NCBI GenBank assembly: GCA_016840645.1
Contig: JAEORY010000104.1
Span: 1 to 10,471 of the forward strand
DNA length: 10,471 nt
DNA from: Candidatus Borrarchaeota archaeon
GTDB lineage: Archaea > Asgardarchaeota > Sifarchaeia > Borrarchaeales > Borrarchaeaceae
Direction of reading: 5' to 3'
This document shows positions 1 to 10,471 of the stretch, piece by piece. The notes below the pieces were generated by a model that was not told where the DNA came from, did not search any database, and saw nothing but the letters and a program-made list of their open reading frames with translations. How positions within the stretch are numbered: position 1 is the first letter of the stretch; every line of letters starts with the position of its first letter. The position numbers and the translations under genes are program-made.

Positions 1-269
1 TTAATAATTTATGTAAGATAGGGGCAGTATGTAAGGCATCAATTCCAGGAACAAGATTTGGAAAAGCAATTTTTTATTCGTTTCCAAAAAAATATCATAT
101 ACTTGTCGAAGCTAGTCGTACCGGAAGTAGTGTTTATTATTTTTTTAATTACGAAAAAATTAGTAAATTTTATATAGTAGTACCGAAATGTTGGAATTTA
201 AAAGGAAAAGACTGGATTCCAAGATATAATAAAAAATTTTTTGATGGTAATATATTAAAGTGGATTTAA
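1..269 (+). CDS. 3' end of a protein of unknown function (cut by left edge)
   Basis: An open frame enters from the left edge (first complete codon at base 3) and runs 88 codons to TAA at 267-269. It has no in-frame stop and no in-frame ATG, GTG or TTG, so the start must lie outside the window. The visible part is rich in Lys, Tyr and Phe and begins with two Cys (NNLCKIGAVCKAS). It continues with alternating hydrophobic stretches suggesting beta strands, such as KYHILVEASRTGSSVYYFF and FYIVVPKCWNLKGKDW. There is no membrane helix. I do not recognise the family; a small nuclease-like alpha/beta fold is conceivable, but no catalytic motif can be pointed to. The next gene starts 1 base after the stop, so the two are probably co-transcribed and translationally coupled. 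That this is coding is likely from the clean frame and tight packing; its function is unknown. Confidence 0.7.
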   Translation, partial: NNLCKIGAVCKASIPGTRFGKAIFYSFPKKYHILVEASRTGSSVYYFFNYEKISKFYIVVPKCWNLKGKDWIPRYNKKFFDGNILKWI

Positions 270-270
270 A

Positions 271-702
271 ATGTCATTGGCGGAGATTTTTATTGTAGTA
301 TTTTTGTGTTTCTACACAAAATATTTCTTTTCATTATTTTCCTCTATGAAAAGAGAAGAAATACAAAAGCGTAATCAAAAACTTGATAAGTTAAGAAAGA
401 TACCAATTAAGTCAATTAAAAAACAAAAAGAATTTTTAAATTTAAGATATCCTAAAAAAACATCAACTAAGTTTGAATGGAACAGACTGCCAAACATTTT
501 ATTTATTATATTGATTTATATAATTTTGTTTTTTTCATATAAATGGTTAATTGTAAGATTTTTTGATTGGGTGGGTTATGAAGTGAGATTATGGCAGAGT
601 ATATTGTTTATTATATTAATGCCATTATGTGTTAATGTAATATTAAAAAGGTTTGATTTACAACAGCAAGAGAGTATGCTTGCATTGTTAAGGAGGGGAT
701 AA
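271..702 (+). CDS. Small three-helix membrane protein, possibly Oxa1/DUF106-like
   Basis: This 143-residue protein has three predicted membrane helices: about residues 5-23 (EIFIVVFLCFYTKYFFSLF), 74-92 and 105-126. Between the first two lies a strongly basic, helical hydrophilic stretch (about 25-70, many Lys/Arg/Gln). The positive-inside rule puts this loop in the cytoplasm and the N-terminus outside. One helix, a charged helical cytoplasmic arm, then a helix pair is the topology of the Oxa1 superfamily, whose archaeal members (DUF106; relatives EMC3, TMCO1, Get1) help insert membrane proteins. The arm here is short and I see no diagnostic residues, so the link rests on topology alone. The ATG at 271 begins 1 base after the upstream stop with no strong Shine-Dalgarno, pointing to translational coupling. 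The next gene begins 1 base after its stop. It could equally be an unrelated small membrane protein of a virus or plasmid. Confidence 0.85.
   Translation: MSLAEIFIVVFLCFYTKYFFSLFSSMKREEIQKRNQKLDKLRKIPIKSIKKQKEFLNLRYPKKTSTKFEWNRLPNILFIILIYIILFFSYKWLIVRFFDWVGYEVRLWQSILFIILMPLCVNVILKRFDLQQQESMLALLRRG
691..698 (+). promoter_or_regulatory. Strong Shine-Dalgarno site for the 170-residue protein
   Basis: AGGAGGGG lies inside the last codons of the upstream membrane-protein gene, with the ATG at 704 five bases beyond it (seven from the core GGAGG). This fixes the start at 704 and shows that the gene has its own ribosome site despite the 1-base gap to the upstream stop. Confidence 0.75.
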
Positions 703-703
703 A

Positions 704-1216
704 ATGACAGTATTAATTCATGTGGGTCGTAGAGTACCGAAAAGATGGTTTAGAAGGCAAGCGGAAAGAGTTAAAGGGTTAGTTTCTTTTCAAGAAAACT
801 TGTGGATGATTATTAAGCAAAGTTTAAATTTGGCAAAGAAGAGGGCAAACGCAAGTAATACAGGTATTAATTTTGTAATGACATATGATAATGAATCTGA
901 GGATTTAAATTATCAAATTGAATGGATTAAAATTATAATTCAAGGGGATGAAAAACAAGAAGAAGAAGAATATAATGAAGCTATGCAAATGTATTCACCG
1001 ATTAATAAGATAATGAAAAAAGAAATACCAAAAGACCCAAGAATGAAAAAACATTTTAAGACCAAAATATTAAGTGGCGCTAAAGTTGATGAGGCTTATA
1101 AGAAGGGATATGGAGCGATAAATGATAATAATATGGCTAATAAACTATTGGAAATGGGTATCTTGACCCATATTGAATGGATTAAAGATTTTGATTCTAG
1201 GGAAATATTTGGTTAA
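704..1216 (+). CDS. Hypothetical soluble protein, 170 residues
   Basis: This is a soluble protein of unknown family. The N-terminus is strongly basic (RRVPKRWFRRQAERVK, residues 9-24) and could bind nucleic acid or acidic lipid. Residues 31-50 look helical. Residues 53-80 look like two beta strands around an acidic turn, followed by an acidic Glu run (83-89) and a Lys-rich middle (102-122). The tail is helical. A six-residue near repeat, QIEWIK at 71-76 and HIEWIK at 156-161, is visible but may be chance. There is no signal peptide, membrane helix or metal-binding cluster. The start is supported by a good Shine-Dalgarno at 691-698. It closes the first gene cluster: a 94-base gap with promoter-like features follows. 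The clean frame and ribosome site make it a real gene; its role cannot be told from sequence. Confidence 0.85.
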   Translation: MTVLIHVGRRVPKRWFRRQAERVKGLVSFQENLWMIIKQSLNLAKKRANASNTGINFVMTYDNESEDLNYQIEWIKIIIQGDEKQEEEEYNEAMQMYSPINKIMKKEIPKDPRMKKHFKTKILSGAKVDEAYKKGYGAINDNNMANKLLEMGILTHIEWIKDFDSREIFG

Positions 1217-1219
1217 AAT

Positions 1220-1238
1220 AGGAAATATATATATAAAT
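1220..1238 (+). promoter_or_regulatory. Candidate archaeal BRE/TATA promoter for the second gene cluster
   Basis: AGGAAA at 1220-1225 followed by TATATATATAAAT at 1226-1238 resembles a purine-rich BRE plus archaeal TATA box. With the usual distance of about 25 bases, transcription would start near 1255-1262, leaving roughly 50 bases before the GTG of the giant gene. This is the only gap longer than about 20 bases in the window, which favours a promoter here. The DNA is AT-rich, so a chance match is possible. Confidence 0.45.
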
Positions 1239-1239
1239 A

Positions 1240-1275
1240 AGTATTGAATTATAAGTACATATGGCAATTAATACT
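1240..1275. repeat. Imperfect inverted repeat near the predicted transcription start
   Basis: AGTATTGAATT (1240-1250) pairs with AATTAATACT (1266-1275), giving a 10-bp stem with one bulged G and a 15-base spacer that contains GTAC. It lies just downstream of the TATA-like element, where archaeal repressors often bind; it could also form a hairpin in the 5' leader. Being AT-rich, it may be fortuitous. Confidence 0.3.
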
Positions 1276-1314
1276 ATATTTAATATGAAAATTCTGAAGA
1301 GGTGTAATACGTGA
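1261..1314 (+). CDS. Possible 17-codon leader ORF overlapping the giant gene's start
   Basis: An ATG at 1261 opens MAINTIFNMKILKRCNT and stops at TGA 1312-1314, overlapping the GTG start of the next gene as GTGA. There is no Shine-Dalgarno before 1261. However, the transcript start predicted from the TATA-like element falls at about the same place, so it could be read as a leaderless ORF that feeds ribosomes to the downstream GTG. It is short and may well be accidental. Confidence 0.2.
   Translation: MAINTIFNMKILKRCNT
1299..1304 (+). promoter_or_regulatory. Shine-Dalgarno that decides the GTG start at 1311
   Basis: GAGGTG matches the archaeal 16S 3' end and ends 6 bases before GTG 1311, supporting the non-ATG start. 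A competing GGAG at 1357-1360 sits only 4 bases before the in-frame ATG at 1365 and would give a protein 18 residues shorter. The upstream pair has better spacing and a longer match. Confidence 0.6.
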
Positions 1315-4300
1315 GGGGGCTACCAAGATATAAAAGGCAAAAATATACAGAAGAATGGAGTAAGATGTCTAGAGCAAAACATCATAGATATGGTGATTTG
1401 GAAACTTATGCTGCTGTTAGAGGAAGAGAAGAAGGTGCAATTTCTCAGAAAGAAGCTGAAAATATTTTAGTACATCAAGCTAGACAAGCACCAGAAGTTA
1501 AACAAATGATATCTTCGGCTGCTGAAGTGGTAAAGACATTAGGCGGGGTTTTGGTTCCTGCAAAAGGAAAAGAAACACAATCACTTCTTCAAAGAGTTAG
1601 TGATATATATAAAGTAGCACAGGTTGCTGAGGCTGGGGGTGCGGTAGTTTTAAAAGAGGCTAAACCATCAGCGGCACCGTTATCGTTTGCTACTGGAGAA
1701 TCTAAAAAGGTTGGTACCATTTCAAATTGGTCAAACCTTCCTGTTACGACCCAAGCAAAGATTAGGTCACAATATGCTGAGGCCGGAAAAGAGGTAACAA
1801 CGACTGGTGAGGTTAGAGAAAGGGCACCTGTTGCTAAAATAACTACAGCTCAACAAAAACTAATGACGTTAGCTGCTCCAAAGGTTTCGACTAGAGTTTT
1901 AGAGCCTACTATTACTCCTAAACCAACTGTTACGGTTACAAAGGCTCCTGCATCATTACCAAAAGCAGTAGAAGATATTTTTAAAAAAGATGCTGCTGCT
2001 TATTTTTTACCTGAAGAGAAAAGAATGAGTATTGGAGTTGGTGTTGCTGCTCCTGAAAAGGCCGTTGATGCGAGAAAAATGGCTGAGATACAATCTGCTG
2101 CTAAAAAGATTGCAATGTTTAATGCTGCTGCTAATGCAGTTAAAAAGGTATTTGGTTTCGCTAGGTCACCAGAGCAAGAAAAGCAATTAGAAGTTGAAAG
2201 GGAAAAACTTGAACAATCTATTGCTAAGAAGTTCCCAGCTGCTGCTCCATTAATAACCAAAGTTGGTGGAGTAGTTTTTGGTACCACTGATGTTAAAGAG
2301 GTCGAACAACAAATTAGAAAAGGAGAAGAGAAGCCAACGGTTGATTTATCAAAAATAAAAATGGAGATGGGTCCTCCAACAATTGATATTACAAAACCTG
2401 GTTATGTTCCTATACAAGAAACTATTTCTGCACCTGGATTTGAAAGACCAACTCCAACAATAGCACCTGAAAAGATGCGAGAGATTGCTATGGGAGTAAG
2501 AGAAAGAGGAATTGGTGTTGAAAATACTGCTAAAAAAGTGGCTGATTTTAATAAATTAGTTTTTGAATATAATGCTAAAGATTTAGAAGGTAAAGCAACC
2601 CCAGAGGAAAAAAGATTTTTAGAATTAAAACAAACTGAGCTGAGAAAAGAAGTAGAAAATTTATATCCTAATGCTCCACAAAAAGATGTCTTTTTAAATA
2701 TAGGTGCTGATAAATCTTTAGAATATATACCTGTTCCTTGGGCAAAATCACAAAAAACTGACCCAGGGGATATCGCTGAAAAACTGATTGTTCAAAAACC
2801 TGAGATAGAAAAGCTTAATACAAGAGCAGAAGCATTGACCAACAGAGGACAAGAAATTGAAAGGGACTATAATGAGATTTTAGATTTTGCAGGAATTGAC
2901 CCAGATAGAATACAGAAATTAAGAGAAGTAAAATCAAAAGAAGAAGTTAATGATATTATTTATACAGGAATGGATGAATTTGCTAATCAAAATCCTGATG
3001 CTATTCCAGCATTAAATCAAAAGATTGAAAAATTTCAACAAAAACAATCCGCCTATTCGAAAGATGTTGAATCATATCAAAAAGATGCCACTGCTTATGA
3101 AGCAAGAAGCAAGGAAGATATAATGGCAGAATTTAAAAAAATTGATGAACAAAAAGAAGCCGTTAGGATGCTAAGAAGAGATGAAGTTAAAGGCCAGGTT
3201 GATACCTATAAAGATAAGATGAAGGAGAAATATAGTCAGACTATTGCTATTCCTTGGTTATGGAATAAAAAAGACCAGGAAAATTATTATTCACTTGTTG
3301 ATAAGATTAAGACTACTGATAAGCCAGAAATTATACAGTTAAGAAAAGATTTTGATGAAGCGTGGGCTGAAAGAAACAAACTTGCTGAAAAATATATGGA
3401 GACGGATAAACCTATATTAGAATCTATGAAGCATGCAAGAGAAATTAAAGCAGCAGATAAAAAGGTAAGAAATATTCAGATTGCTTTACAGAATGCTGAA
3501 ATTAAGCAATCTGATGAAGAGATGAAAGCACGGGCAAGAGAAATTGAAAGCCCCTATTTAAGATATCCTGCAAGGTTTGGAGCAGGCGCCCTATCTAAAT
3601 TGAGAGAAAGCCCTGAAGAGGTTGCATTAACAGCTCTTACAGGATTTGGTGCTGGGGCAGTATTAAAAACTATTGGTACAGGTGCTTTAAGATGGGCAGG
3701 ACAAAGTGCTTTAAGACAAGGGGTAGTAAAAGCTGCTGGTGCGATAGGGCTTGTTGGACTCACAGGATTAGCTGCAAAAGACAGCTTTGAGGAAATAATT
3801 CAATCACCCTATAAGGTTGAAGCTGCTGGAGAACTTGCTTTAGATGCTTTAGCATTTGGTTTTGGTGCAGGTAAAGGAGCCAAAGCTGCTGAATTTAAAG
3901 TAACTGATATAGGTGATATTAAGGTATCATATAAGCCCCCAAAAAAGATTATTGAAACAACAGGAATGCCACGAGAAATGCCAGCATTAGAAGTTTCAAA
4001 AATTTCTCCAGAATCAGCATTATTGGTTGAAGCTGCGCCAACAGCAGAAGCCGCAGCTGCTGCCCAAGCAAGAGAATTAAGAATTAGAAAAATGATAATG
4101 GGCGGTGAAATGCCTGAAGTAGCAGTTAGACAAAGATTAGCTGATATAGTTTTGGACTATGATAAACAAGTAACAAGATTTGGAAAGACTTATGATGTAA
4201 AAGTTGAGACTAGAATAAAGCCAGATAACAGTATATTTCATACTGAGAAGATGGGTGATACCACTATTATAATAAGGCAGGAAGCAGGTTCTCCAACTGC

Positions 4301-6185
4301 TTTAAAGCAAACCTTCTATAAAGGCAAATTAATTGGAGCTGGCGGAGAAACTATTAAAGGATTTGATTTAAAAAACGTTTTGAAAACTAATGAACTAATT
4401 AAAATTGAAAAAGACCCAATAGTTGCTTCTTGGAAAACAAAAGAAGGTAGAGGAATATTGCAGGAATGGAAAGGTCAAAAGGTTGATGTTGTTACTGAAC
4501 CTGTTAATAAAGGGTGGATGATAAAAGGAGTATTAGAACAGCAGGCAGAACAGCTTAAAGCAACAAAGATTGGCAAAGCTAAGGTTGCTGAGGCTGATTT
4601 TTATACAAAATATGTAAGAGGACCAGGAGTAAGAAAGGATATTGTTGGAGCTGTTCCAGGAAAACAATATCTTCAAGATATTAAATTAGCTCTTGGAGAA
4701 AGACCAAAAGGATTGCCTAAATATGAAACTATTACTGGTGAACCGGTTTGGGAAGCAAAGCCTGAAATGAGATTTGGACCAGCAGGAGAACTTTTAACAA
4801 CTGAGGCAATTATGAGAAGACCAACTACTATGATTGAATATCCTGAATTAGAAACAACTATTGCTAGGAAAGAGGCGGTGACAGGAGTATTAAGAATGGA
4901 AAGAGCACCAAAAGTTTCTTGGACAACTCGGTTGATTGAGGGATTAAGAACTCAAATTGATAATTTGAAAATTAGAATTGCCGAATTAAGAGGCAAAAAA
5001 TTAACACCAGAACAACAAAATACGCTTAAAAAATTAGAGGCTCAATTATCAGAGGCTGAACGGCAGGAAGCTTTATTAAAAGTAACTGAGAGAAAAGAAG
5101 TTGTAGCAGAGAAGACAGTCTTGAAAGATTTAAATAAAGTAATAAAAGATTTAGAAATATCAAGACCTGAATCAAAAACACCTTTAAATAAAAAAATTGA
5201 ATCCTTAGACAGAGCAATTAAAACTGTAGAAAAACAAAAAGGTCTTTCACCAGAAGTTGTTGATGCTATTGGAAAACTTAAGATTGAATTAGAAGGCCTT
5301 AAAATGCAGGAAAAGACAGGAAAAGAATTAATTAAAAAGAAAATTAAGAAACCAAAAAAAGAGGTTGAAGTTCCATCACGCCCAGGAGAGGCGGTTACGG
5401 TTATGGAGGTTGAAGAAGTTAAACCTGTTACCAAACCAGTAACTGAAAGAGTAGTAACTGTTGAAAAGATGAGACCAATGCCTCCTAAATTTCCAACAGC
5501 AAGAGGATTGGGCGAACTTGTTTGGAAGACTGTAGAATTACCTAAACAAAGAATATTACCATGGGTGGTTCCTTCTGTTGCTGTTGCTGCACAAAGAGGA
5601 AAAGCTAAGGCTGAAATGCTTGCTGTAGCACCAGTAACTGAATTAAAGAAGGTACCAGTTGTAACTACTACTCCTATTACAAAAGTTACGCCAAAAATAG
5701 AAACTGTTCCAAGACAGATTACTGAGACAATTGGAAGACCAAAAACTATTATGCCACCAGTGATTCCAATAGTTCCTTGGGTTCCGCCCCCGCCTTTGCC
5801 AGTGCAACCAATGGAACCTTTTAAGCCAATTGTTCCGCCAGGTATTGGTGGTGCTATACCGCAAGGTTATAGAAGATGGCAGCAAGGTAGAGGTATGGCA
5901 GGATGGACCGTCGTTAATCCAATAGCCGATTTCGGTACAGCATTTTTTGGAAGACAAAGGGCAAAAATGATGGGTTTCGGCGGAGGACCTGCACTTAAAG
6001 AGCTTGAACCACAAACAGAAAAAGTTGGGTCATTAGGTCAGAGCTTTTCAGACATATTTGGTATTGGCAAAGGGGCTACACCAACTATGATGAGAACCGC
6101 ACCTACAATGGTGAGAGGTACACCTGCTGTGAGAAGAACAACCCCAGGTATTGATTTTGCAAAAAAAATAAAGAGTATGATATAA
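1311..6185 (+). CDS. Giant 1624-residue structural-type protein with helical, hydrophobic, coiled-coil and Pro-rich/basic regions
   Basis: No family is recognised. In order: a basic N-terminus without signal peptide (1-30); an Ala/Lys/Glu-rich low-complexity part with Pro-Thr spacers (45-390); long charged helices (390-450, 490-745); a Gly/Ala-rich hydrophobic block (768-862) with phrases such as LTGFGAGAVLKTIGTGALRW and AAGAIGLVGLTGLAA, able to form hairpins that insert in a membrane; a mixed, partly beta region (about 945-1075); a coiled coil with heptads (about 1204-1347); a Pro/Val/Thr-rich linker ending in the PPVIPIVPWVPPPPLP stretch (1482-1497); and a Gly/Arg/Met-rich basic tail with a degenerate repeat. 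Start GTG 1311 is backed by GAGGTG. The next gene begins 1 base after the stop. Size, low complexity and a central hydrophobic patch recall scaffolding, tape-measure-like or internal virion proteins of archaeal elements, or a cell-envelope scaffold; this is inference. That it is one intact gene is near certain. Confidence 0.9.
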   Translation: MRGLPRYKRQKYTEEWSKMSRAKHHRYGDLETYAAVRGREEGAISQKEAENILVHQARQAPEVKQMISSAAEVVKTLGGVLVPAKGKETQSLLQRVSDIYKVAQVAEAGGAVVLKEAKPSAAPLSFATGESKKVGTISNWSNLPVTTQAKIRSQYAEAGKEVTTTGEVRERAPVAKITTAQQKLMTLAAPKVSTRVLEPTITPKPTVTVTKAPASLPKAVEDIFKKDAAAYFLPEEKRMSIGVGVAAPEKAVDARKMAEIQSAAKKIAMFNAAANAVKKVFGFARSPEQEKQLEVEREKLEQSIAKKFPAAAPLITKVGGVVFGTTDVKEVEQQIRKGEEKPTVDLSKIKMEMGPPTIDITKPGYVPIQETISAPGFERPTPTIAPEKMREIAMGVRERGIGVENTAKKVADFNKLVFEYNAKDLEGKATPEEKRFLELKQTELRKEVENLYPNAPQKDVFLNIGADKSLEYIPVPWAKSQKTDPGDIAEKLIVQKPEIEKLNTRAEALTNRGQEIERDYNEILDFAGIDPDRIQKLREVKSKEEVNDIIYTGMDEFANQNPDAIPALNQKIEKFQQKQSAYSKDVESYQKDATAYEARSKEDIMAEFKKIDEQKEAVRMLRRDEVKGQVDTYKDKMKEKYSQTIAIPWLWNKKDQENYYSLVDKIKTTDKPEIIQLRKDFDEAWAERNKLAEKYMETDKPILESMKHAREIKAADKKVRNIQIALQNAEIKQSDEEMKARAREIESPYLRYPARFGAGALSKLRESPEEVALTALTGFGAGAVLKTIGTGALRWAGQSALRQGVVKAAGAIGLVGLTGLAAKDSFEEIIQSPYKVEAAGELALDALAFGFGAGKGAKAAEFKVTDIGDIKVSYKPPKKIIETTGMPREMPALEVSKISPESALLVEAAPTAEAAAAAQARELRIRKMIMGGEMPEVAVRQRLADIVLDYDKQVTRFGKTYDVKVETRIKPDNSIFHTEKMGDTTIIIRQEAGSPTALKQTFYKGKLIGAGGETIKGFDLKNVLKTNELIKIEKDPIVASWKTKEGRGILQEWKGQKVDVVTEPVNKGWMIKGVLEQQAEQLKATKIGKAKVAEADFYTKYVRGPGVRKDIVGAVPGKQYLQDIKLALGERPKGLPKYETITGEPVWEAKPEMRFGPAGELLTTEAIMRRPTTMIEYPELETTIARKEAVTGVLRMERAPKVSWTTRLIEGLRTQIDNLKIRIAELRGKKLTPEQQNTLKKLEAQLSEAERQEALLKVTERKEVVAEKTVLKDLNKVIKDLEISRPESKTPLNKKIESLDRAIKTVEKQKGLSPEVVDAIGKLKIELEGLKMQEKTGKELIKKKIKKPKKEVEVPSRPGEAVTVMEVEEVKPVTKPVTERVVTVEKMRPMPPKFPTARGLGELVWKTVELPKQRILPWVVPSVAVAAQRGKAKAEMLAVAPVTELKKVPVVTTTPITKVTPKIETVPRQITETIGRPKTIMPPVIPIVPWVPPPPLPVQPMEPFKPIVPPGIGGAIPQGYRRWQQGRGMAGWTVVNPIADFGTAFFGRQRAKMMGFGGGPALKELEPQTEKVGSLGQSFSDIFGIGKGATPTMMRTAPTMVRGTPAVRRTTPGIDFAKKIKSMI
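6078..6146 (+). repeat. Short degenerate repeat in the tail of the giant protein
   Basis: Residues 1590-1612 repeat a roughly seven-residue unit: TPTMMRT, APTMVRG, TPAVRRT, TP. Each copy joins a Pro with one or two Arg, giving a basic, disordered tail. It is visible at protein level; the DNA copies have drifted. Confidence 0.5.
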
Positions 6186-6186
6186 A

Positions 6187-6504
6187 ATGGAAAGCATTTT
6201 TAATAGAAAAAACAAAAAAGGTTATAGTACAGGATTTACGTGGGTTTTTGGATTAGTTACGATATTTGGATTAGGCGTAATGTACATTGTTTTTAGTCAG
6301 GTTTTTAATGCTTATTTGGTACCAACAATAAAAGATATGGTTGATAATCCAATAATTCCAAACGCAACACAGCAAGAGATAAATGCAGGCATTGATAAAT
6401 ATATGGCATTTTTTAATATTATGCCATTTGTATTATTTTTTGTTGTTGTGATATATATGATTGTAGCAGCATTTAGAAAGGAACGTGAAGAGGCGTTCTT
6501 ATAA
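6187..6504 (+). CDS. Small membrane protein with two transmembrane helices
   Basis: This 105-residue protein has a Lys/Arg-rich N-terminus (RKNKKG, residues 7-12), a first helix at about 17-42 (FTWVFGLVTIFGLGVMYIVF and on), a hydrophilic loop of about 30 residues with an NAT sequon (59-61), a second helix at about 74-95 (FFNIMPFVLFFVVVIYMIV), and a charged tail (RKEREE). The positive-inside rule puts both ends in the cytoplasm and the loop outside, where the sequon could be glycosylated. I do not recognise a family. The ATG follows the giant gene's stop by 1 base with only a weak AAGAG upstream, so translation is probably coupled to that of the giant protein. Its place between two large signal-less proteins and upstream of a secreted one suggests a membrane anchor or assembly partner; a holin-like role is possible but unsupported. 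Confidence 0.85.
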   Translation: MESIFNRKNKKGYSTGFTWVFGLVTIFGLGVMYIVFSQVFNAYLVPTIKDMVDNPIIPNATQQEINAGIDKYMAFFNIMPFVLFFVVVIYMIVAAFRKEREEAFL

Positions 6505-6505
6505 T

Positions 6506-6511
6506 AGGAGG
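6506..6511 (+). promoter_or_regulatory. Consensus Shine-Dalgarno for the 498-residue protein
   Basis: AGGAGG lies right after the previous stop, with 9 bases to ATG 6521. A nearer ATG at 6514 is only 2 bases away and in a different frame, so it is not a usable start for this gene; another in-frame ATG at 6530 is farther off. This is the best ribosome site in the window and suggests high expression. Confidence 0.75.
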
Positions 6512-6520
6512 TTATGAAAA

Positions 6521-8017
6521 ATGGACAATATGTCAAAAATATTTGGAGGAAAAATTCCAGGCTTGGATGCACCGATAGATACAAAGATATCTATACCCAA
6601 GATTGAAAAGAACATATTTGATAGACAGATTGCTGCTCTTGATATGAAATTTGATATGAAATTAGATAAAAAACTTAATGTATTTAACAAAAAGCTTCCT
6701 GAACTCAAAATGCCTGCTTTTCAAGATTTATTATCAAAAAAGACTAAAAGGGAAGATATATTTGGCGCTATGACCAAAACCTTTAAGAAAAAGCAGAGAC
6801 AGTTTTTGCCAAATAAAATGAAAATGACACTTAATGGAGGGTCATTTAAAGATATGACAAAAACCTTTGAACAAAAGATGTTATTTAATAGAATGATACA
6901 CCCTGAAAAGATTGCTAGAACAAGACTTAAAACACAAAAAAAATTAGACTTATTTGGTGATTATGATAAAGATGGAGTGATGAATATCTTTGATTGTCGA
7001 CCAAAGATGAAAAAGTGGCAGGGGCCATTTGATAATAACAATAATTCTAATCTTCCGATGGTTCCTGAATATCCTATAGAACCTTATCAGGAACCAATTG
7101 AAATTCCTGCTGCTGAAGAAGAGGAAGAAGAACCAACAACAAAAGTCGTTACTGGTGTTACAGAGGAAGAATCAGTTGAAGAGCCTGCGGAAAACATTGT
7201 TGAAGCTGAATACACAATAGCAGGTGAAGAACCTGCGACAGAAAGGATTAAGAAATTTGTTGGTCAAAAGGTTAAAGATATAGGTGAGATTTTAGCGGTT
7301 CCTGAAGAAGCATATGCTGAATCTGAAAAAGAACCAGAGATTCCATCTGAACCTAAACCTGGAGTATTTAGGAGAGCAGGCGAGGCCTTAGGTATTGTGC
7401 CGACAGCAGAGCAGGTAGCTGAGAGAGAAGAATTAGCTGGAATAAGAAGAGAGGCTAGGAAAGAAGCTGTTGCTGAATTAGAGAAGCAAAAAATTAAAGA
7501 TATATTAACTGGTGAGAAACAGAAAGTTAAAGAAGAATATAGAAAAGAAGTATATAAAACATTAGGCATAGCACCTAGTCCTATTTATCAAGCAGCTAGA
7601 GGAGTTAGTAGACGACCAGGACGATTAGCTAGAGGTATGGAGACCTTACAAACAGGAGTAAGAACATCAACAATGACTCTCTCAGAAGGCATTGGTGCTG
7701 CATTGCCAGGCGCATCACAGAAAATAACTGACCTTATAGGACTTGGGTCAGGCAGAGGATTAGCTATGGGATATTTTTCGTCAACTGGTAGAGGGCTTCA
7801 GATGGGATTTTTGCCAGGCATGGAACCACCAGTAGAAATGCCAACTGCCCCTCCCTCAGTTATTGCTCCAACGCCTGTTACAATGGCACCATCAGCCCCA
7901 GCTCCTCACCCAACATATAGACGAACAGTTGAAACTACTGAAGGTAGAATTATGAGCCCATACAGTAAAAGACCTGTTAGATATACCAGAGGTCCTTATC
8001 GTAAAAGATTTGAATAA
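6521..8017 (+). CDS. 498-residue protein with a Ca2+-loop-like DxDxDG motif, acidic middle and Pro-rich/basic tail
   Basis: There is no signal peptide or membrane helix. Residues 1-140 are basic and helical, with a repeated MTKTF (84-88 and 112-116, 28 residues apart). At 147-161 DYDKDGVMNIFDCRP matches the thrombospondin type 3/EF-hand-like loop DxDxDGxxNxxDC: D147, D149, D151, N155 and D158 could bind one Ca2+, with C159 next to it and KKWQG following. From memory, similar D-D-DG-N-DC-P phrases occur in archaeal proteins of mobile elements; I cannot confirm this here. A Pro/Glu-rich acidic linker (181-280) follows, then a charged helix (295-345), a Gly/Arg segment with GRGLAMGYF/GRGLQMGFL (411-431), a Pro-rich stretch (435-464) and a basic C-terminus (RYTRGPYRKRF). 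Start 6521 is fixed by AGGAGG. It shares its tail design with the giant protein upstream. Function is unknown; a structural role is likely. Confidence 0.88.
   Translation: MDNMSKIFGGKIPGLDAPIDTKISIPKIEKNIFDRQIAALDMKFDMKLDKKLNVFNKKLPELKMPAFQDLLSKKTKREDIFGAMTKTFKKKQRQFLPNKMKMTLNGGSFKDMTKTFEQKMLFNRMIHPEKIARTRLKTQKKLDLFGDYDKDGVMNIFDCRPKMKKWQGPFDNNNNSNLPMVPEYPIEPYQEPIEIPAAEEEEEEPTTKVVTGVTEEESVEEPAENIVEAEYTIAGEEPATERIKKFVGQKVKDIGEILAVPEEAYAESEKEPEIPSEPKPGVFRRAGEALGIVPTAEQVAEREELAGIRREARKEAVAELEKQKIKDILTGEKQKVKEEYRKEVYKTLGIAPSPIYQAARGVSRRPGRLARGMETLQTGVRTSTMTLSEGIGAALPGASQKITDLIGLGSGRGLAMGYFSSTGRGLQMGFLPGMEPPVEMPTAPPSVIAPTPVTMAPSAPAPHPTYRRTVETTEGRIMSPYSKRPVRYTRGPYRKRFE
7751..7822 (+). repeat. Tandem 12-residue repeat GRGL(A/Q)MG(Y/F)
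   Basis: Residues 411-422 (GRGLAMGYFSST) and 423-434 (GRGLQMGFLPGM) are adjacent copies of a 12-residue unit, conserved in the first eight positions apart from A/Q and Y/F changes. A related phrase, GRGMAGW, occurs in the tail of the giant protein (residues 1526-1532). Confidence 0.55.
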
Positions 8018-8018
8018 A

Positions 8019-8022
8019 GGAG
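8019..8022 (+). promoter_or_regulatory. Shine-Dalgarno for the secreted protein
   Basis: GGAG (within AAAGGAG that overlaps the previous stop codon) lies 5 bases before ATG 8028 and 8 before ATG 8031. Either of the two adjacent ATGs could serve; the choice changes the protein by a single residue. Confidence 0.6.
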
Positions 8023-8027
8023 TTATT

Positions 8028-10471
8028 ATGATGGCAGATGTTAGAAAACAAATTATTATATTCCTGACGATATTAGTTCTTTTAAGTAGTATAGTGTTTG
8101 CTCAGTATCACACTTTTGTATTTAATGAGCCATTTAATAATGCATCAAATATTAATGCTTCAAGGTCTTCAGACTATCAAGTGAGTGGCGGATTATTAAG
8201 TTTACTTTTTTCAACAGGAGGATTTTTTGATGAGTTTAATGATGCTTCAATCAATTCTACTTTGTGGTCTCAGTCAAGTTGTACAGAGACAGGAACAACT
8301 TTTAATGTTAATACTAGAAGGATTGCAACACAAGTTGGAAGTGGAACAACTAATGCATATATGAACAATAAGTTAGATTTAGAAATGACACGAACTAAAA
8401 ATATTACTATTATTTTAAGTTCAACACAAGCAGCTATGGATTATTCTGAATATTGTAAAGCAAGTGAATGCGGTGATGGGAGCTATGGACCAGGAGTATG
8501 TTATGGTGACACTTGGGCATATTTAAATGCAATAGAATGGAACGGTCAGACAGCAGGAGCAGGAAGTAAAAGCAACAGCCACCTTGTTTATTCTAGAGGA
8601 AGTGGTAGTGGGTCTTCTGGAATATATATTTATAATATCTATTATAATGCTTCTGATATGAAGATGACAGTTAAGAGAAACGGTGCAACACAAACGACTT
8701 GGGATTTATCAACTTGGGCAAACGTTTCAGTTTCTTTTAATGCACGAACATATTCAGCCTGGAATGGTGAGTGTGGTTTTGGGTGTTTTGAATGTGATTC
8801 ATCATCATATATTTATTTGTACAATTGGACACAGGAGTCAATAGGATATGGCCCAGACGGAAAGGTTTATTCTGAGACAATTAATATGCTTGGAAAGATG
8901 TCAAACTTTACTTTGACTACTGAATCTAATTGTAACAATCCAAGTTATGATTGTACTTATAATGTTTCATGTGATAGTGGAATAACATATTATAGTGATG
9001 TTCAAAATGCTACAATAACTAATTGTCAGGTAAAAGATGATAAGTTGTTATGGGCTTTAGATTTTTTTACAACTGATGGAACTGCTACTCCACAAATATA
9101 TAACTTATATTTTGAAGGCTATAATTGGCAACCAACGTTTAATCAGTCATTAGGAAGTACCACTATAATTAAAGGCACACAAGTTGATGTTGATGCTAAT
9201 TGTTCTGATTCAGAAAGTGATACAATAACATATTATGATAATAGCCCATATTTTACAGTAGACCCTAGTGGTGGTAATGTAACAATTAATACATCATTAT
9301 TTCCTTATGGTGCTCATACGATAAGATTTACTTGCAATGATACTTGGGGAGGAGATTATAGAGATTTTAATTTAGATGTAAGAAGTAATCCCCCAAGTGC
9401 TCCTGAATGGTTAAAACCTGGAACCGAGGTGTTTTTTAATGATTCAATACAAGAAAAATTTATGAGTTTTTTTCTTACAAATATTTCATGTTATCAAGAA
9501 TCAGCTAATATTAGTGACCAAACAGGAATGGATGGAAATTGTGGACTTAATTATTCAGGCAATTATTATGTAACTGCAAATTATTTATATATTAATTATA
9601 CAAAACCGTCTGGATACCAATATGGTAGTTTATGGAGAGTTGAGCATGGAAGTCTGTCAGGTTATAATATACTTCTTCCAAATGCTTGTTTAAGTCAGAG
9701 TCCTCTTCAGTTAAGAATATATTCTGAGGCACATCTTAATTATGGTGAATCTCAACCTTCTTGTTATAATGGTACTGCTTGGCAAAACGTGGGAATTAAT
9801 GCTTTGAGTCTTTTAGGAGTAAATTATATTACAGGAAACAGTGCTTTTATGTATGATGGTAATTGGAACACTCATTCTGCTTATGCTTCATGGGTGCCGC
9901 AATGGAGAACAGAATTTGGTGGTAGTAATATTGAAGCAAACGTTTATGAAGAAGCAATGCTTTGGCTTGTTCCGGCCTATTTACCTGATAGAGAATATAT
10001 AAGATTGCCAGGTGAATCAAGGGTTGTTGAAGCTAATTTATCTGCTGATGCTACAATTCCTTTTTGGTTAGATATTGGGAATTATAATTATTTAGTTAAT
10101 TATACGATTAATCAAAGCTATAATTTTACGATTCCGTTTAATGATTATTTAGAAAATAATTGTACACCGTATCAATTATGTGATGTACCACTTATTTTTA
10201 CTGCTAATCAAACTGGTACTGTTAATTTTTCATTTAAATTAATTTATGATAATGAATCATTAGGCCAAGTAGTTAATATATCATGGGCCAATGCTACTGA
10301 TTTAGATAATGATACAATAACTTATACAGTTGAAGCTCAAACTGATGGAGGTTGGTTTAGTGTAATCAGTGGAATATTAAATAATTGGTATAACTGGGTT
10401 GTAGATTTTGTTTATACTGGTCCAATAAGTTTTAGAGTAAAAGCAACAGACCAATGGAATGATACATCTAA
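8028..10471 (+). CDS. Secreted, heavily sequon-bearing multidomain surface protein (5' part; runs off right edge)
   Basis: An open frame of 814 codons without a stop continues past the window. Residues 1-26 form a signal peptide (KQ, hydrophobic core 9-24, VFA then Q), so the protein is exported. Residues about 67-285 begin FFDEFNDASINSTLW, the usual opening of archaeal concanavalin/LamG-like beta-sandwich domains, and may bind glycans. Residues 366-452 look cadherin/Ig-like (VDVDANCSDSESDTITYY then HTIRFTCNDTW). About 465-650 is another beta-rich module with YDGNWNTHS and NVYEEAMLW, possibly discoidin-like. About 661-741 holds a close Cys pair (712, 718). About 745-810 is Ig/fibronectin III-like (VNISWANATDLDNDTITYTV). 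I count 19 Cys, which outside the cell suggests disulfides, and 33 NxS/T sequons. It is probably a cell-surface adhesin or a virion spike glycoprotein. The C-terminus, where an anchor would be, is not seen. Confidence 0.88.
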   Translation, partial: MMADVRKQIIIFLTILVLLSSIVFAQYHTFVFNEPFNNASNINASRSSDYQVSGGLLSLLFSTGGFFDEFNDASINSTLWSQSSCTETGTTFNVNTRRIATQVGSGTTNAYMNNKLDLEMTRTKNITIILSSTQAAMDYSEYCKASECGDGSYGPGVCYGDTWAYLNAIEWNGQTAGAGSKSNSHLVYSRGSGSGSSGIYIYNIYYNASDMKMTVKRNGATQTTWDLSTWANVSVSFNARTYSAWNGECGFGCFECDSSSYIYLYNWTQESIGYGPDGKVYSETINMLGKMSNFTLTTESNCNNPSYDCTYNVSCDSGITYYSDVQNATITNCQVKDDKLLWALDFFTTDGTATPQIYNLYFEGYNWQPTFNQSLGSTTIIKGTQVDVDANCSDSESDTITYYDNSPYFTVDPSGGNVTINTSLFPYGAHTIRFTCNDTWGGDYRDFNLDVRSNPPSAPEWLKPGTEVFFNDSIQEKFMSFFLTNISCYQESANISDQTGMDGNCGLNYSGNYYVTANYLYINYTKPSGYQYGSLWRVEHGSLSGYNILLPNACLSQSPLQLRIYSEAHLNYGESQPSCYNGTAWQNVGINALSLLGVNYITGNSAFMYDGNWNTHSAYASWVPQWRTEFGGSNIEANVYEEAMLWLVPAYLPDREYIRLPGESRVVEANLSADATIPFWLDIGNYNYLVNYTINQSYNFTIPFNDYLENNCTPYQLCDVPLIFTANQTGTVNFSFKLIYDNESLGQVVNISWANATDLDNDTITYTVEAQTDGGWFSVISGILNNWYNWVVDFVYTGPISFRVKATDQWNDTS

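Follow-up and report, generated by a model that had tools for sequence, protein, structure and literature searches.

The described viruses closest to the locus analysed here are spindle-shaped viruses of archaea. Fuselloviruses (SSV1, SSV19) have two-helix capsid proteins, the ATPase B251, which is DnaA-like, and a VP4 spike that is glycosylated and adjoins the two-helix protein B-78 (consulted sections of PMC9608457; gene table), traits that may have counterparts in the locus or its relatives; they differ in genome size (15.5 kb) and in having no giant signal-less protein before VP4. For the Haloferax lemon-shaped virus LSV-48N (PP151251), the consulted sections of PMC12714723 report 13 viral proteins detected in the supernatant in three of three replicates; the most abundant has a C-terminus resembling the SSV19 tail protein (HHpred probability 92.36%, E 4.9) and a beta-sandwich at residues 365–549, and we infer that it is the virus's 904-aa protein. 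The viruses of PMC9894754 are alike by description only: in the sections consulted they have genomes of up to 72.6 kb, an RNA-primed PolB, structural and enzymatic arms, and hydrophobic alpha-helical capsid proteins, sometimes two.

The DNA analysed (the window) is a stretch of 10,471 nucleotides. We consider it likely, with a probability of about 0.68, that four of its genes, encoding a giant protein, a two-helix membrane protein, a protein with a Ca2+-type loop and a glycoprotein, build the attachment/entry end of a probably spindle-shaped virus that would infect archaea, and that the window comes from a conserved block of virus genes. The group is widespread and apparently undescribed; it was not recognised in the open-licence PMC literature on archaeal spindle viruses and DPANN elements or viruses, including the consulted sections of PMC9894754, PMC10848311 and PMC9608457.

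Layout of the window and of its syntenic relatives

Table 1 Features of the window, with positions counted from its first base
Feature	Position	Strand	Basis or remark
Gene 1 (5' end cut)	3..269	+	No assigned function; relatives in G006 and G004
Gene 2, 143 aa, three hydrophobic segments	271..702	+	Hydropathy; relatives in G006 and G004
Gene 3, 170 aa, best-conserved group marker	704..1216	+	Protein comparison
AT-rich intergenic gap with TATA-like stretch, 5' of the giant	1217..1310	+	Sequence reading
Giant protein, 1624 aa, GTG start, no signal	1311..6185	+	ORF call; same position as the G006 and G004 giants
Mid-protein hydrophobic patch of the giant, residues 804–822	3720..3776	+	Hydropathy
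C-terminal part of the giant common to relatives, residues 1455–1557	5673..5981	+	Protein comparison
Gene 5, 105-aa two-helix membrane protein	6187..6504	+	Helices 17–35 and 78–96
Gene 6, 498 aa, one Ca2+-type loop	6521..8017	+	Relatives P0002, G006, G004
24-residue loop FGDYDKDGVMNIFDCRPKMKKWQG, gene 6 residues 145–168	6953..7024	+	Loop profile matches
Gene 7, secreted glycoprotein, likely spike, 820+ aa, 3' end cut by contig end	8010..10469	+	ORF call

ORF calling resolved the window into seven genes, all on the + strand (Table 1). The original prediction had described a four-gene module starting at 1311, with gaps of 1, 16 and 10 bases. Its four + strand frames and first two gaps are borne out; the third is obtained only if gene 7 starts at ATG 8028, as the longer frame from TTG 8010 overlaps gene 6 by 8 bases, and the module start did not hold, because genes 1–3 also belong to the block. 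Its description of the proteins stands. The giant lacks a hydrophobic stretch at its N-terminus and shows a single hydrophobic patch; both helices of the 105-aa membrane protein are hydrophobic; the 498-aa protein contains a single calcium-type loop (DYDKDGVMNIFD); and the last protein, with 33 N-x-S/T sites and a hydrophobic segment at its N-terminus, reads as a secreted glycoprotein.

Family searches returned little. The glycoprotein matched Pfam Cadherin_4 (E 1.3e-4; 22.8 bits, below the cut-off of 25.1) and Pfam recognised almost nothing else in the window, a PHROGs profile search of the window proteins gave no convincing match, and neither RNA families nor tRNA were found in the window. 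Phage records contained no match to the window DNA or to the giant, gene 6 and gene 5 proteins, and neither single window proteins nor a two-sequence alignment of gene 6 found a relative in viral contigs. The decisive leads were a DNA pattern for the loop, then an alignment of gene 5. The pattern led to the IMG/VR contigs G001 (80.6 kb), G002 (65.6 kb), G003 (61.4 kb), G004 (116 kb) and G005 (36.6 kb), of which G001 was examined minus its last 611 bases and G003 minus its last 1433; the gene 5 alignment (window and G004) led to G004 again and to a sixth contig, G006 (82.6 kb).

Each of the seven window genes has a relative in G006 and in G004, in identical order (E-values for these two contigs come from small local databases). 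Gene 1 matches G006 3996–4403 at 53% (86 aa, E 4e-34) and G004 28145–28585 at 32% (E 8e-11); gene 2 matches a 138-aa protein of G006 at 41% and a 141-aa protein of G004 at 31%; gene 3 is 73% identical to its G006 and 57% to its G004 counterpart. The giant matches that of G006 at 31% over 101 aa (E 3e-6; 33% over 105 aa in another comparison) and that of G004 at 35% over 48 aa (E 1e-4). Gene 5 matches proteins of 102 aa (G006, 65%) and 103 aa (G004, 62%), and gene 6 a 410-aa protein of G006 (33% over 125 aa) and a 782-aa protein of G004 (52% over 48 aa). For gene 7, the matches to a 1807-aa protein of G006 (35% over 130 aa) and a 5294-aa protein of G004 (34% over 140 aa) may reflect shared repeat domains. 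Conservation of the window frames as proteins in the same order in both contigs exceeds chance. The 94-base gap before the giant, which contains the stretch TATATATATAAATA and would hold the candidate promoter of the original prediction, is where both relatives have an additional gene (90 aa in G006, 510 aa in G004); G004 also has a 100-aa gene behind the giant. G006 is probably a closed circle (~82.5 kb), since its end repeats its first 104 nt exactly.

An order scan matched four of 14 sequence sets, namely the window, G001, G004 and G005, all loop-bearing contigs, and missed G002 and nine reference viruses, LSV-48N and SSV1 among them. Its ORF caller mis-called LSV-48N, for which the order was judged from annotated genes; the input for ATV, SH1, phiCh1, SIRV2 and BJ1 was their first 50, 30, 50, 35 and 42 kb, respectively. 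G006 stood outside the scan and its order was taken from gene-by-gene comparison, while G002 has the same order by eye, with four small genes in between. On G005 (L049), + strand genes that look tailed-phage-like by eye lie opposite a − strand archaeal-type block, and this contig may be chimeric.

The window had originally been read as part of either an undescribed archaeal virion or a DPANN cell-envelope/attachment machine. Synteny in two virus contigs argues for the virion, as do the continuation of the block into capsid-like and ATPase genes and the DNA-replication genes elsewhere on the contigs; the four genes were neither scattered nor each matched to an unrelated known function in the contigs examined. 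A chromosomal attachment machine of DPANN or other archaea would suit the glycoprotein, which by eye resembles archaeal surface proteins. It is nonetheless very improbable, given synteny in virus contigs, one of them circular with its own replication genes, and given a loop search of 84,980 genomes (with the single spelling G-D-x-D-x-D-G-V) whose 34 stretches all carry bacterial titles and include no archaeal chromosome.

Gene 3 is the best of the markers that the block supplies for finding this virus group. In a 5.8-billion-protein database it gave 429 matches at E ≤ 0.01 among 2564 candidates, window copy included; none of the 120 matches listed carries a Pfam domain, and some of the matches lie on contigs of up to 127 kb. 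A common group of large viruses thus appears to have been missed by the family libraries used here. Gene 3 is present in two of the six contigs and absent from the phage and plasmid collections. Its AF2 model, built from 91 sequences (the window and 90 of the 120 listed matches), has a pLDDT of 83.8 and no structural match at E ≤ 0.001 (best 0.022 in the PDB and 0.015 in the viral library). The model of the gene 7 glycoprotein was unusable (pLDDT 32), PDB sequence searches with genes 3, 6 and 7 gave no believable relative, and gene 5 had no match in G001 or G002. An insertase-like topology was considered for gene 2 and dropped for want of a supporting Pfam profile.

The giant protein and the Ca2+-type loop

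At the place of the giant, G006 has a 1414-aa and G004 a 1510-aa counterpart. The giants have no signal-like N-terminus, and sequence similarity among them was detected only in C-terminal parts, among the window, G006 and G004 and, separately, between G002 and G005. Hydrophobicity peaks mid-protein, at 41–54% of the length, in all seven giants compared (six from contigs and the LSV-48N protein); the mean hydropathy of this stretch is 1.41–1.90 and passes the helix threshold of 1.6 in only four of the seven. The last third of the window giant is enriched in proline. A protein database search with the giant returned only itself among the 7987 candidates sharing most words. The giant is likely an internal virion protein, for which we infer an internal, ejected or membrane-active role. 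By eye, nucleotidyltransferase-like stretches are seen in the giants of G001 (L002:1545–5057) and G002 (L011:11616–17102) and none in the window giant.

Gene 6 is 69% identical to P0002, and a protein database search returned only itself and P0002 among the best-ranked candidates; it matches no Pfam family at E ≤ 1. Its loop is putatively of the Ca2+-binding type, judging from the pattern of ligand positions. Like thrombospondin type 3 and dockerin-type loops, it has D-x-D-x-D-G spacing, later N/D and D, and then C-x-P (R or K replaces G in some copies); one tagged protein of G006 matches TSP_3 at E 0.088, the best of the tagged proteins and below the cut-off. Unlike those loops, it is mostly single-copy, usually near the N-terminus, and sits on signal-less proteins. 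No open-licence PMC paper was found that connects thrombospondin type 3 repeats to archaeal viruses. The spelling G-D-x-D-x-D-G-V is also present in bacterial MAGs (L013–L046), many of them Saprospiraceae, two or more times in several contigs.

A profile of 11 loops matched P0002 and, across seven contigs, a further 16 proteins that otherwise differ from one another; of these 16, six lie outside the profile-building set. Nine other virus records gave no match at E ≤ 1, and two further matches (E 0.41 and 0.48, 7 residues each) were discarded as chance. Across 17 proteins, 14 of 20 loop copies begin within the first 112 residues, whereas the window copy begins at residue 145, and the inner copies in the G004 chains score weakly when taken alone (domain E 1.7, 0.1, 0.032 and 0.0017). 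As G001–G005 were retrieved via the loop, its presence there is no evidence; G006, with three loop proteins, was retrieved without it. In G001 the loop stands at the N-terminus of the giant itself, and in the window, G004 and G006 it is on a separate protein closely behind the giant, a fusion and split that suggest cooperation between giant and loop protein. A 1146-aa chain of G004 joins three loop copies to a GNAT domain (E 6.4e-6).

The loop is possibly a sorting tag. In its full form this idea, which we regard as doubtful, takes the loop to be a transferable virion-sorting tag that large archaeal viruses would place close to the N-terminus of internal proteins with no other kinship, in several copies in some chains, once in an acetyltransferase-domain chain and once on the giant itself. 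The 498-aa protein would collect this cargo at the pole of the giant, and the cargo would be packaged with the genome and delivered into the host, with external Ca2+ as the lock. If giant and loop tag acted as proposed, spindle viruses would possess a means of delivering cargo that parallels the internal proteins of tailed phages.

Capsid-like, ATPase and replication genes around the block

Past the spike or spikes, both relatives continue with a two-helix protein (140/168 aa), a three-helix protein (96/103 aa), a 75/78-aa protein and then tandem two-helix genes of 73–98 aa, three in G006 and two in G004. The helices of the tandem genes are 93–100% identical and their inter-helix loops vary in length and sequence. 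These genes are likely candidates for capsid genes: their helices are better conserved than the rest of the shared genes, which would suit a capsid protein that forms a lattice. In a six-frame search, phrog_16261 matched G004 (E 2.2e-4 and 0.0019), G001 (2.9e-4) and G006 (0.031, with a stop); it also matches three of 14 cellular control genomes, and hmmscan found it in one of four G004/G006 two-helix copies tested, at an E of only 0.1, so that profile evidence for a capsid is weak and unspecific. A profile of the capsid-like proteins matched no known spindle capsid protein (His1 ORF21, E 2.1), and a PDB sequence search gave no believable relative (best ATP synthase subunit c, E 0.0083). The same profile matches a 351-aa protein at G004 99172–100227 (L063–L064; E 1.7e-7). 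At L074:2626–3456 and L059:178–671, near-identical helices are joined by differing loops with N-glycosylation sites; in these tandem genes it is as if an exposed loop were diversifying through gene duplication.

Upstream of the block, the relatives carry a helicase and an ATPase of the DnaA-like family (phrog_5484; E 7.3e-6 in G006, 2.2e-5 in G004), whose profile is present in four of the six contigs and in five of 14 control genomes. Elsewhere, G004 encodes PolB, a clamp-loader-type AAA protein and a dUTPase. Of the proteins expected in tailed viruses (Caudoviricetes), the large terminase subunit (Terminase_6N) and the portal (Phage_portal) were searched by profile; these matched none of the six contigs and, respectively, six and four of the 14 control genomes. 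Other gene content was recorded as follows. In G006 (39388–40047 and 65802–67526; L074–L076), genes that look QueE-, FolE- and QueD-like by eye suggest deazaguanine DNA modification in the virus, and adjoining genes at 45190–46465 (L075) appear by eye to encode an E1-type adenylating enzyme and a JAB peptidase. In G004 (L059–L064), TROVE/Ro60, PTH2, poly(A)-polymerase-head, SPFH and response-regulator domains were matched, together with an intein-splicing domain.

Conjugative pilins are typically small two-helix proteins too, and IMG/VR can include non-viral elements. The block could accordingly be imagined as part of a conjugative or plasmid-like element, with pilins in place of capsid proteins, the giant as transfer protein and the glycoprotein as mating adhesin, the more so as no particle of this group has been seen. 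We consider this improbable: gene 3 is absent from the plasmid collection, no conjugation ATPase occurs among the Pfam families listed (the best 25 of 66 for G001 and the best 25 of 33 for G004), and the architecture and spike anchor match those of LSV-48N, a virus seen as particles.

Relation to spindle-shaped viruses

The link to spindle viruses runs through the relatives rather than the window proteins. In the relatives, the spike, or a second spike directly behind it, ends in membrane helices, and a spike-anchor profile was built from the last 90 residues of the G006, G004 and G001 spikes. Against 117 tails of proteins longer than 400 aa (the LSV-48N spike included twice), the best non-seed match was the LSV-48N spike (E 8.6e-7), followed by two further spindle virus proteins, BLv25 ORF8 (0.038) and His1 ORF27 (0.09), with the remainder at 0.71 or worse; the window tail, which is cut before any anchor, scored 1.3 and SSV1 VP4 5.4. 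Over all 3670 ORFs, LSV-48N was again the best non-seed match (E 0.0047). The G001 ATPase matches LSV-48N (E 3e-5) and the Halorubrum spindle-shaped virus BLv25 (E 4e-4); that of G006 matched no phage record.

The particle had originally been pictured as enveloped or pleomorphic, which the spike anchor and gene architecture, both pointing to the lemon-shaped LSV-48N, refine to probably spindle-shaped. Pleomorphic archaeal viruses likewise combine an anchored spike with small membrane proteins. A membrane-vesicle-like virus of that kind, with these proteins in its envelope, would share this likeness and would agree with capsid-like genes that are not proven spindle capsid proteins; it is unlikely, as the spike anchor (in a 117-tail set without pleomorphic viruses) and, via G001, the ATPase match spindle viruses best.

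For the spindle-shaped virus, the following arrangement is proposed; particle shape and host are conjectural in it, as are the place and function given to every protein. The gene 7 product would be the secreted, glycosylated spike, and in the relatives this spike or a second one would be anchored by terminal membrane helices. Beneath the spike, the virion membrane would contain the 105-aa two-helix protein, and the giant would lie inside the particle, from where it would enter or pierce the host membrane on entry. The 498-aa protein may tie this end of the particle to the giant and to further internal proteins; Ca2+ would fill the loop after the particle leaves the cell.

Compared with LSV-48N, the block belongs to larger genomes (80–116 kb versus 24.9 kb), and LSV-48N lacks the Ca2+ loop and a gene 3 counterpart; its giant and two-helix proteins have no detectable similarity to those of the window. 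Its gene order at 4807–10527 (824 aa, 86 aa, 92 aa, 904 aa) is nevertheless alike: a signal-less 824-aa protein with a mid-protein Gly/Ala patch is followed by two small two-helix proteins, and a 904-aa secreted glycoprotein with C-terminal helices comes last. LSV-48N is cultivated and its particles have been seen; if giant and loop tag act as proposed, the way in which spindle viruses enter cells could be tested on it.
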